Of a stretch of 34,834 nucleotides of DNA, positions 17,260 to 20,300 are shown one piece after another. The first letter of the stretch is position 1. The number at the start of each line of letters is the position of its first letter. The stretch covers positions 1 to 34,834 of the forward strand of contig JAOUMJ010000029.1 of assembly GCA_029881495.1 (NCBI GenBank), written 5' to 3'. Both the position numbers and the translations under genes were made by a program. Below the pieces are notes generated by a model, which saw only the letters and a program-made list of their open reading frames with translations, did not search any database and was not told where the DNA came from. The stretch comes from Nitrospinota bacterium (GTDB taxonomy: Bacteria; Nitrospinota_A; UBA7883; JACRGQ01).

Positions 17260-18000
17260 TCAGATATTTTCCGCGGAGCCTACCTCTAGTTCTTCGAACC
17301 AGTCCAGGAACTTTTCCGCTTCGGCTTTTTTATATATCGCGCCATGCTGGGGGCACATCATGTTTATATCGAGTTTTCTCACCCGTTCTATCCATTGGTT
17401 TTTTGCTGTCTTTGAAGGCATCCATCGCTTGTGGAATCCTTCAATGTACTGGACATGTCTATCGAAATCTTCAACAAAGATGCCGCTGTTATCCTTTGGC
17501 AAAAGCGCCGCCCCTATATCTCCGCTGAACAGGATCTTCGCAGTGGGGTCGTAGAGTGAAAAGTTGCCAGAAGAGTGGCAGTAGTGCGCAGGGATCAGTT
17601 GTAATTCGTCGCTTCCGCCAAGCGGGAGGGTCATCCCTGCGTCCGGTATCTGGTAGAGAGTTCTGTCACTCCCGAAGTGGGGAATGAACAGCGACCATAT
17701 CGAAGGAACATAAACTTTCATGTTCTTGCAGACTCCGAACCAGAGGGAAAGAGAGGAACATATATCCGGGTCCTGGTGCGAGCAGAAGAGAATTTCGATG
17801 TCGTCCATTTTTATTTCGCGGGAGATGGTTGATAAAACGGGAGGGAATATCTCCATGCCGCCCGGATCCAGCAGAAGCCCTTTTCCGTTTTCCATGATGA
17901 GATATTCATTTGTATCTATGACAATATCTTTTTTATCGGGGTCGCGTCCAAAAAAGAGCCAGCGTCTCCCTTTTTTATTAAAAAGTTCATAGGTTTTAAT
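17260..18000 (-). CDS. ODP-like metallo-beta-lactamase-fold protein (putative diiron sensor) with probable ATT start
   Basis: A metallo-beta-lactamase-fold protein related to the oxygen-binding diiron proteins (ODP) and flavodiiron lactamase domains. Numbered from the proposed start, possible metal ligands are His75, Asp77 and Asp79 (SHQDPD), His139 (PAHYCHSSG), Asp160 (SGDIGAA) and His219 (CPQHGA). The second His of the usual HxHxDH motif is missing, which argues against a zinc hydrolase and for a diiron centre. There is no flavodoxin domain. The first ATG (17895) would cut off 35 residues, including DTNEYLI and the first sheet strands. The frame stays open upstream with no ATG, GTG or TTG. 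A perfect GGAGGT at 18007-18012 is 7 nt before ATT at 17998-18000, so ATT is the likely start (246 residues). The upstream gene encodes a receptor-tip-like protein and ends 17 nt earlier, which suggests a sensory pair. Confidence 0.75.
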   Translation of the reverse strand: MKTYELFNKKGRRWLFFGRDPDKKDIVIDTNEYLIMENGKGLLLDPGGMEIFPPVLSTISREIKMDDIEILFCSHQDPDICSSLSLWFGVCKNMKVYVPSIWSLFIPHFGSDRTLYQIPDAGMTLPLGGSDELQLIPAHYCHSSGNFSLYDPTAKILFSGDIGAALLPKDNSGIFVEDFDRHVQYIEGFHKRWMPSKTAKNQWIERVRKLDINMMCPQHGAIYKKAEAEKFLDWFEELEVGSAENI

Positions 18001-18006
18001 AAGCTG

Positions 18007-18012
18007 TACCTC
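18007..18012 (-). promoter_or_regulatory. Shine-Dalgarno that decides the ATT start of the ODP-like gene
   Basis: On the minus strand the sequence reads GGAGGT, then ACAGCTT, then ATT. It is a full-strength ribosome binding site in the 17-nt gap between the upstream stop and the proposed start. No ATG, GTG or TTG in any frame lies at usable distance for the conserved protein. Confidence 0.65.
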
Positions 18013-18017
18013 CGAGT

Positions 18018-18746
18018 TTAGTTTACACCCTTGCGATATTGTTTGTATGTTTCTATCATTTTTATCAGCTTGTATACTTCTTCTTCAGCATCCTCATGTA
18101 TTTTGGCGATATCGGCAGTAAGTTGGGATATGTTTTCGGCGACGATTATCAGGTCTTCACCATAGTCGCTTACCCGTACCGATTCCACTTTGGCGGTTAT
18201 GGCGAGGTATTTGCTGTGTTTCTGAGTCATGTTGCGTACCCCTCCCAGCAATCCCGCGAGTTTTTGCGCGTTTTCAAAAAGCCCTTCCCTCTGATCTGCT
18301 ATTGTTTTTTTGCTGGTTTCAAGGATTCTTTCGAGATGTTCCCCAGCTGTACCGGGCAAAAACTGGTGTTTGTCCGGTTTTTCAGTTTCGTTTCCATCGT
18401 CATCTTCAGCAGATTCCGCTTTTTCTTTGGCAATTATCAGATTCAAACTTTCAGCAAAAAATTTTCCTCTTTTGTTTTCGCCGTTCCATTTCGCAACCTG
18501 ATTTACCATTTTCGCAAATATGTCTTCAACTTCTTCTATCATGCGCGTAAGTTCCTCAGACATGACGATAAGTTCCTTAACCAGCACGGAGAACGGTTCG
18601 CCGGCGGCGCCGATCCGTGATGATGCGACTTGGGCGTTTATCGCAAGTTTCCTTGAGTGCCTGGTCAAATCCATAATGCCTTTGAAGGAGAGGTTTACGT
18701 CGATCGCCTTTAATTTCAGGCTCTCTTCCATTAATTTCAGGCTCAC
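18018..18746 (-). CDS. Soluble protein with two degenerate chemoreceptor-tip hairpin motifs
   Basis: A 242-residue, almost wholly helical protein with no membrane segment. I know no named family for it. Two segments resemble the hairpin tip of chemoreceptors ([12 protein letters not shown]...FAVVADEV): residues 34-50 (LAINAQVASSRIGAAGE, then FSVLVKEL) and residues 181-197 (LAITAKVESVRVSDYGE, then LIIVAENI). An acidic linker (about 105-130) separates the halves. The conserved Glu and Arg of the CheA/CheW-contacting surface are only partly kept, so it may be a decoy, adaptor or scaffold rather than a full receptor. The start is GTG at 18746 or ATG at 18731. It lies 17 nt upstream of the ODP-like gene, in the same direction. 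Coupling between the two is inference. Confidence 0.75.
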   Translation of the reverse strand: MSLKLMEESLKLKAIDVNLSFKGIMDLTRHSRKLAINAQVASSRIGAAGEPFSVLVKELIVMSEELTRMIEEVEDIFAKMVNQVAKWNGENKRGKFFAESLNLIIAKEKAESAEDDDGNETEKPDKHQFLPGTAGEHLERILETSKKTIADQREGLFENAQKLAGLLGGVRNMTQKHSKYLAITAKVESVRVSDYGEDLIIVAENISQLTADIAKIHEDAEEEVYKLIKMIETYKQYRKGVN

Positions 18747-18780: not shown

Positions 18781-18913
18781 TTTTTCAAGTTTCTAGTAAT
18801 GTATTATGTTCCACTGGAATAGAAATTGTCGGTAAATCCGTTTTTATAGCAGTTTTTGAAAATTCTAATTTGGTAATAGGATGCTGTCCGACGTTACGTT
18901 ATAATACAGTTTT

Positions 18914-18928
18914 TCGGCAATTCGCCGA
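18914..18928 (+). other. Short hairpin next to the ribosome binding site of the NtrC-type gene
   Basis: TCGGC and GCCGA form a 5-bp stem around a 5-nt loop, ending 2 nt before the AAGGA ribosome binding site (18931-18935). A TATAAT at 18900-18905 just upstream could be the -10 element, but no -35 is recognisable. If so, the hairpin would lie at the very 5' end of the mRNA. Confidence 0.3.
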
Positions 18929-18941
18929 CGAAGGATATTTG

Positions 18942-20300
18942 ATGAGTACCATACTGATAGCAGACGACGAGGAGAGCATGGTAGGGATGCTTGGGATCCT
19001 TTTCAAGGGTGAAGGGTACGAGATAGAGACCGCCTCAAGCACCGATGAAGCTGTGAATATTCTGGAGTCGAAAGAGGTAGATTTGGTAATTTCAGATATG
19101 AAGATGCCGACAGATGGCGGTATAAGCATATTGAAGGCATCCTTGAGAATGGACATCGACAGGCCGGTTGTAATGGTAACGGCCTACGCGTCGGCGGAGA
19201 GCGCCGTGGAGGCAATGAAACTCGGAGCATATGATTACATTACAAAGCCATTTAACGTTGACGAGATAAGGCTTATCGTGAAAAACGGGCTTGAGCGACG
19301 CGCCTTAATAAGAGAGAATAGCTCGCTTAAGGATCAATTGAGGCGGAAGGAAGGGATAAGTGAGATAGTTGGAAACTCCGAGCCGATCAATGGAGTAAAG
19401 GATCTTATAATCCGCGTGGCAGATTCTTCCAGCACGATCCTTATCACCGGGGAGAGCGGAACTGGCAAGGAGCTTGTCGCCAGGGCAATACACCAATTGT
19501 CACCCAGAAAGGACGGAAATTTCCTTTCAATCAATTGCGGCGCGGTCCCAGAGCAACTTCTCGAAAGCGAGCTGTTCGGTTATACGAAAGGCTCGTTCAC
19601 GGGTGCGGTTTCAAACAAGATCGGATTGTTGGAGGCGGCAAACGGCGGCACCTTTTTTTTCGATGAGATCGCCGAAATGCCGGTATCTCTCCAGGTAAAG
19701 CTGGTTAGGGCGCTTCAGGAGCGTGAAGTGCAAAGGATTGGCGGTACAAGCCCGATACCTCTGGATGTGAGGTTTGTTGCGGCGACAAACCGGAACCTGG
19801 AGGAAGAGGTGAAAACAGGGGGATTCCGCGAAGACCTTTATTACAGGTTGAACGTTATACGGATAAAGCTCCCTTCTCTGCGCGAGAGGAAAGAGGATAT
19901 ACCGGCGCTGGCGAACAGCTTTTTACTGAAATTGAATGTGCAGAATAAAAGGGAAGTGAAAGGATTTATGCCCGATGTGATGAAGTTGTTCGAAAGTTAC
20001 GGCTGGCGCGGAAACGTGCGTGAGCTTGAGAACGTCGTTGAGCGGGCGATGGTTCTGGAGACTTCCAACTGGATAACCATGGAAAGTCTCCCTGACAGCA
20101 TCAGGAACCCGGGGCAGTTTGAAACCGCGCTAAACCTTCCGGGTGACGGGCTGGACCTTGAAGGGAAGCTGGGTCAGATAGAGAAGAGACTCATCGCCGA
20201 GGCGCTGGAAAGGAGCAAGGGCTCAAAAAGGGAAGCCGCCAAACTGTTGAATGTTAATTTGCGTTCTTTGAGATACAAGTTGTCGAAATATGATTTATAA
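18942..20300 (+). CDS. NtrC-family sigma54-dependent response regulator
   Basis: A 452-residue transcription activator. The receiver (about residues 1-120) has the acidic pair in IADDEES, the phosphoacceptor Asp in ISDMKMP, and the Lys in YITKPF. The AAA+ domain (about 140-370) has Walker A GESGTGKE, Walker B GGTFFFDEI, and the sigma54-contacting loop as GSFTGA instead of GAFTGA, a common functional variant. A Fis-type helix-turn-helix closes the protein (SKREAAKLLNVNLRSLRYKL). The start is ATG at 18942, with AAGGA six nt upstream. An in-frame ATG at 18870 would add 24 non-family residues. A cognate histidine kinase is not adjacent. The gene overlaps the next one by 11 nt. I see no clear sigma54 promoter in the window that would name its target. 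Confidence 0.94.
   Translation: MSTILIADDEESMVGMLGILFKGEGYEIETASSTDEAVNILESKEVDLVISDMKMPTDGGISILKASLRMDIDRPVVMVTAYASAESAVEAMKLGAYDYITKPFNVDEIRLIVKNGLERRALIRENSSLKDQLRRKEGISEIVGNSEPINGVKDLIIRVADSSSTILITGESGTGKELVARAIHQLSPRKDGNFLSINCGAVPEQLLESELFGYTKGSFTGAVSNKIGLLEAANGGTFFFDEIAEMPVSLQVKLVRALQEREVQRIGGTSPIPLDVRFVAATNRNLEEEVKTGGFREDLYYRLNVIRIKLPSLRERKEDIPALANSFLLKLNVQNKREVKGFMPDVMKLFESYGWRGNVRELENVVERAMVLETSNWITMESLPDSIRNPGQFETALNLPGDGLDLEGKLGQIEKRLIAEALERSKGSKREAAKLLNVNLRSLRYKLSKYDL

Follow-up and report, generated by a model that had tools for sequence, protein, structure and literature searches.

The window, which is the whole stretch of 34,834 nucleotides analysed from a Nitrospinota bacterium, carries two adjacent genes on its minus strand (Table 1). 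The upstream gene codes for a helical protein with two chemoreceptor-tip-like hairpins (the partner), and the downstream gene codes for a member of the ODP family. The stop codon of the partner gene, TAA, occupies 18020-18018, leaving a gap of 17 nt before the start of the ODP gene. The positions and gap agree with a preliminary description of the locus. A gene for a sigma-54-type (NtrC-type) response regulator (18870-20300) is the divergent neighbour of the pair.

Table 1. Features of the gene pair, with positions in the window
Feature	Position	Strand	Remarks
Tandem-tip partner gene	18018..18746	-	242 aa, GTG start, predicted soluble all-helical protein
First receptor-tip motif, residues 34-52, LAINAQVASSRIGAAGEPF	18591..18647	-	Tsr N381 and R388 equivalents kept, E385 absent
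Second receptor-tip motif, residues 181-199, LAITAKVESVRVSDYGEDL	18150..18206	-	Tsr E385 and R388 equivalents kept, N381 absent
GGAGGT ribosome-binding site, ODP gene	18008..18013	-	
ODP-family (PF19583) putative diiron protein gene	17260..18000	-	246 aa, probable ATT start
HQDPD motif, predicted metal ligands H75, D77, D79	17764..17778	-	invariant in 84/84
Predicted metal ligand H142	17575..17577	-	invariant in 84/84
Predicted bridging metal ligand D161	17518..17520	-	invariant in 84/84
Predicted metal ligand H219	17344..17346	-	invariant in 84/84

The start of the ODP gene lacks an ATG, GTG or TTG at the right position. An ATT codon (17998-18000) is found 7 nt after the perfect GGAGGT (18013-18008), and two homologues, L013 and L014, have methionine exactly at the corresponding residue. 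Owing to this spacing and the homologous methionines, ATT 18000 is most likely the start codon, although it is a rare one. ATG 17895, which opens the mechanically called reading frame (17260-17895), was rejected as it would remove the invariant residues W14, D29, N31, Y33 and L34.

The encoded protein matches Pfam PF19583 at E=4.9e-78, with 261.9 bits placing it above the curated cut-off of 27.2. The two solved ODP sequences match it at E=9.6e-74 and 2.8e-70, with identities of 43.8% and 44.1%. The metal site was compared in 84 aligned sequences, made up of 80 fetched loci (the best 80 of 291 relatives) and four local ones. Of the hydrolase motif HxHxDH, the ODP lacks the second and the final histidine, and a diiron-type ligand set, H75/D77/D79/H142/D161/H219, replaces this zinc motif. 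Residue 80 is I, V, T or L in the alignment and never H. The preliminary description had recorded an altered SHQDPD sequence in place of HxHxDH in an ODP-like protein. That sequence is present, with its HQDPD part conserved throughout, and is of the ODP/flavodiiron type. A zinc hydrolase reading of this metallo-beta-lactamase-fold protein was dismissed, as HxHxDH occurs in 0/84 aligned ODPs. By analogy with the solved relatives, the site would be expected to hold two irons.

The partner is matched by Pfam MCPsignal (PF00015) in two stretches (E=7.2e-8), with a score of 32.9 bits that falls just below the cut-off of 34.6. In profile-profile comparisons, the halves, each taken alone, matched canonical receptor tips at 98.8% and 95.0%, and each other at 96.4% (E=1.1e-9). 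This likeness to receptor tips is far beyond chance. Since the halves match receptor tips separately and also match one another, the partner is a tandem of two tips. The AlphaFold2 model of the window protein (pLDDT 91.5, pTM 0.83) is helical. The earlier claim of two tip-like motifs in a soluble helical protein is borne out. The homologue from Dechloromonas agitata was modelled with a pLDDT of 91.3 and a pTM of 0.82. Foldseek searches with the window model returned mainly generic single-chain four-helix bundles, while those with the Dechloromonas agitata model also returned Tsr and other receptors. The latter model fits a tip chain of the E. coli core signalling unit, with 98 columns superposed at 1.8 A and a target-based TM of 0.86. 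From these models, the partner would be a bundle of four helices whose two tips lie at the same end, resembling a receptor dimer built from one chain; the DSSP assignment, however, runs through the first tip without a break. The protein is presumably too short for the usual MCP methylation region.

The preliminary description had proposed looking for the two families as neighbours across genomes. A profile scan of genome contigs with the ODP alignment gave 291 relatives, from which the best 80 were kept. A same-strand reading frame ends within approximately 80 nt of the ODP start in 79 of these 80, and in the window as well as in 79 of the best 80 of 291 relatives the ODP gene adjoins one for a sensorless, membrane-free receptor homologue. 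Small independent profiles, built from own receptors or from four Nitrospinota partner sequences, recognised the partner in 70 of the best 80 loci; the other nine were assigned by position and family alignment, which is partly circular. In the one exception (L070, genome G093), the ODP and the partner (L107) reside on different contigs. As a control, 27 other ODP-family loci from relatives and random genomes were inspected. No tandem-tip gene adjoins any of these, and a single-tip receptor stands beside one of them, L113. A lack of co-occurrence, which the preliminary description had named as a refutation, is not what these loci show, and the contrast (79/80, from the best 80 of 291, against 0/27; Fisher p=1.8e-24) rules out chance adjacency.

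Searching 47 carrier genomes with the partner model yielded a single strong match in each, followed by a gap to the ordinary MCPs. Weaker second copies in genomes G101 and G106 both lie directly upstream of an ODP. The possibility that the partner is a free-standing MCP relative was rejected, as the strong matches sit with an ODP in the 47 genomes, with one clear split (G093). The distances of partner and ODP co-vary with r=0.946, against 0.21 for the best of 1000 permutations, a correlation that is uncorrected for species relatedness. The pair is a real, conserved and widespread two-gene unit. Fusion of ODP and partner into a single reading frame was found at none of the 80 loci (best 80 of 291).

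Some loci depart from the simple arrangement. Two tandem partner-like genes precede a single ODP in L105:3431-4638. In the Methylobacter genome G106, the second pair (L109:145-3401) lies directly downstream of two cheB-like genes. The partner gene of a Rhodocyclaceae MAG (L097:2993-3514) has two in-frame deletions of about 51 and 60 nt when compared with its close relative L093. These take out the cores of both tips and the remainder is nearly identical; either this is a natural variant without tips, or the assembly is at fault.

The nearest relatives of the window ODP come from Nitrospinales/Nitrospinota MAGs. Carriers extend over about a dozen phyla or groups, namely Nitrospinota, Myxococcota, Planctomycetota, Actinomycetota, Pseudomonadota, Acidobacteriota, Spirochaetota, Bdellovibrionota, Bacteroidota, Ignavibacteriota, SAR324 and Sericytochromatia, and include the cultured genera Dechloromonas, Azonexus, Undibacterium and Methylophaga. 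In the ODP tree, the 62 rows of tandem-tip ODPs branch as the sister of a group that holds both solved ODPs and the single-tip L113. Support is 100/99 for the joint clade and 91/90 and 99/80 for its two sides; these values are rough because the bootstrap had yet to converge, and L113 sits on a long branch.

The two tips differ in the residues they retain at positions of known contact. Among 79 intact partners, aligned at a mean identity of 28%, asparagine occupies the Tsr N381 equivalent in all first tips (79/79) and in few second tips (7/79), whereas glutamate at the E385 equivalent is found in none of the first tips (0/79) and in most second tips (76/79). Arginine at the R388 equivalent is found in 57/79 first and 17/79 second tips, with the window partner having it in both. 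After a redundancy cut at 40% identity, the remaining 34 partners have N in 34/34 first tips, and E in 0/34 first and 31/34 second tips. The full N381/E385/R388 set is never present in the first tip and rarely in the second, and all three residues occur together in each of the 8 canonical receptors checked from the window genome. Since neither tip regularly has the full set, docking of the partner on CheA/CheW may differ from that of a normal receptor. The division of contact residues over two unequal hairpins would fit an asymmetric guest in receptor assemblies.

Carrier genomes also encode the machinery of chemotaxis. CheW domains were found in 47/48 carriers and in 15/36 background genomes, in line with the earlier proposal to look for che genes alongside the pair. 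Members of the FliM/FliN family were found in 47/47 carriers tested and 15/36 background genomes, although FliMN_C also covers related secretion proteins, making this a strong hint of flagella and not a proof for each genome. The carriers include one Rickettsiales MAG and one Acidimicrobiia MAG, from groups that are not expected to be flagellated. The only carrier without CheW, the planctomycete G063 (L029, L110), also lacks the CheA dimerisation domain. As it retains FliM/FliN and receptor-like matches, the absence of Che genes may reflect a gap in the assembly.

In a Bacteriovoracaceae MAG (L045) and in Legionella rowbothamii (L072), one run of genes encodes, in this order, the partner, the ODP, a canonical mini-receptor of 139-153 aa, CheA, CheW and a CheW-like protein. 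This is the strongest direct link of the pair to the kinase. The mini-receptor suggests that the partner is not the sole coupler at these loci, and hints that the partner does something that a plain receptor tip does not.

The window genome itself encodes ten MCPs and several CheA genes, with seven matches to the CheA dimerisation domain. It has two further ODPs. One (L106:6211-8769, contig C2 of G000) shares its run of genes with CheY, CheR and a STAS-domain protein, and ODPs of this type in relatives adjoin CheB/CheY (L130) or CheA (L131). The other (L010:1420-3390) has a hybrid histidine kinase-receiver protein encoded 15 nt downstream, an arrangement that suggests an ODP-fed two-component system. 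Downstream of a different Nitrospinota ODP type (L117, L118, L119, L122 and L139), the next gene encodes a small conserved protein (about 90-125 aa) with a motif like Y-x-D-L-x-E-x-x-x-K-R-x-x-G-I-x-G.

It is fairly likely that the pair is a module of flagellar chemotaxis that senses oxygen or iron in the cytosol and couples the ODP to CheA/CheW assemblies. We infer a sequence of sensing, ODP-partner contact, insertion into arrays and an effect on CheA. The ODP would read O2 (or Fe(II), NO or peroxide) at its FDP-like diiron site, and its apo, diferrous or peroxo state would change its contact with the partner. The partner, in the order helix 1, tip 1, helix 2, linker, helix 3, tip 2, helix 4, would serve as a single-chain mimic of a receptor-tip dimer and bring the state of the ODP into receptor/CheA/CheW assemblies. 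In the simplest form, the partner would take an asymmetric place amid the receptor dimers, at the tips closest to the kinase, altering CheA output, with its tips providing complementary halves of the usual contact set when placed with receptor dimers. This place as a guest in receptor trimers is held with less confidence than the coupling role. A wider proposal is that such partners form a new family of single-chain pseudo-dimers that share out the contact residues of one ordinary receptor tip over two unequal hairpins, obligatory asymmetric guests of arrays that couple a freely cytosolic diiron oxygen sensor to CheA across about a dozen phyla; this is offered tentatively, as a possibility somewhat short of even.

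The partner could instead be an adaptor or tether that holds the ODP near receptors or the mini-receptor through leftover trimer-type contacts, with a canonical receptor controlling the kinase. Both L045 and L072 place a canonical mini-MCP and CheA next to the pair, and the residues of the E385-R388 pair, an ionic lock between the dimers of a receptor trimer (PMC8144572), are unevenly shared between the two tips. Most loci, however, have no mini-receptor beside the pair, and the positions kept best among the partners are the N of the first tip and the E of the second, pointing to an active tip surface. A tether is considered rather unlikely.

Two other explanations carry far less weight than the tether. 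The ODP may be mainly an enzyme for the removal of O2 or NO, with the helical protein as a structural or redox partner and an incidental link to chemotaxis. It does have the fold and ligand pattern of flavodiiron proteins, but its 246 residues leave no space for a flavodoxin or rubredoxin domain, che and flagellar-switch genes are near-universal in carriers and the characterised relative is a sensor (PMC7666581), making an enzymatic role highly improbable. The output may otherwise pass to a non-flagellar Che-like pathway or another regulator, such as the adjacent NtrC-type protein, a kind of regulator that is likewise divergent from the pair in G009. The seven CheA-dimerisation-domain matches mean that several Che systems may exist in the window genome. 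Yet FliM/FliN-family genes occur in all carriers tested and the NtrC-type neighbour is absent from L013/G017, so that such an output is thought very unlikely.

Should the chemotaxis module hold, a soluble metalloprotein sensor would plug into chemoreceptor arrays without the receptor's own sensor domain, and a natural heterodimer-like tip would become available for dissecting the two sides of the receptor-kinase interface. The pair occurs in cultured genera, where its role in oxygen or iron taxis is directly testable.

The ODP shares its metallo-beta-lactamase core with the flavodiiron proteins ROO and NorV, and its ligand spacing is close to their H-x-[ED]-x-D...H...D...H pattern. In ROO, the ligands are H79-x-E81-x-D83, H146, D165 and H226. 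Unlike these proteins, the window ODP is without a flavodoxin domain, has Asp in the first motif where they have Glu, and is linked to che genes. The partner has the antiparallel hairpins, sequence and predicted geometry of an MCP signalling tip (PF00015, e.g., Tsr). It differs in that two tips stand in tandem on one polypeptide, the N381 and E385 equivalents are divided between them, and the membrane and sensor parts of MCP receptors are absent.

Operons of ODP and MCP genes have been described in two orders, along with ODPs beside other signalling genes and in fusions (Muok et al. 2019, as summarised in PMC7319448). The ODP of Treponema denticola senses oxygen and has a genetic coupling to the sensorless MCP TDE2496, which is without transmembrane and sensing modules and yet can modulate CheA (PMC7666581). 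The preliminary description had held the pairing to be undescribed. This does not stand for the general arrangement, as operons of an ODP with a sensorless cytosolic receptor are published (PMC7319448, PMC7666581). Within the literature searched, the tandem-tip, single-chain pseudo-dimer form of the partner looks new, and a literature search, a weak negative, found no tandem-tip receptors. The partner scores below the MCPsignal cut-off and has two divergent tips in one chain, which may set it apart from TDE2496, and the tandem-tip ODPs form a sister clade to the solved ODPs and the single-tip L113. The window ODP nevertheless belongs to the same broad clade as the T. denticola system, with approximately 44% identity to both solved ODPs, and in both systems the organism has chemotaxis genes and couples an ODP to a receptor homologue that lacks membrane and sensor modules.
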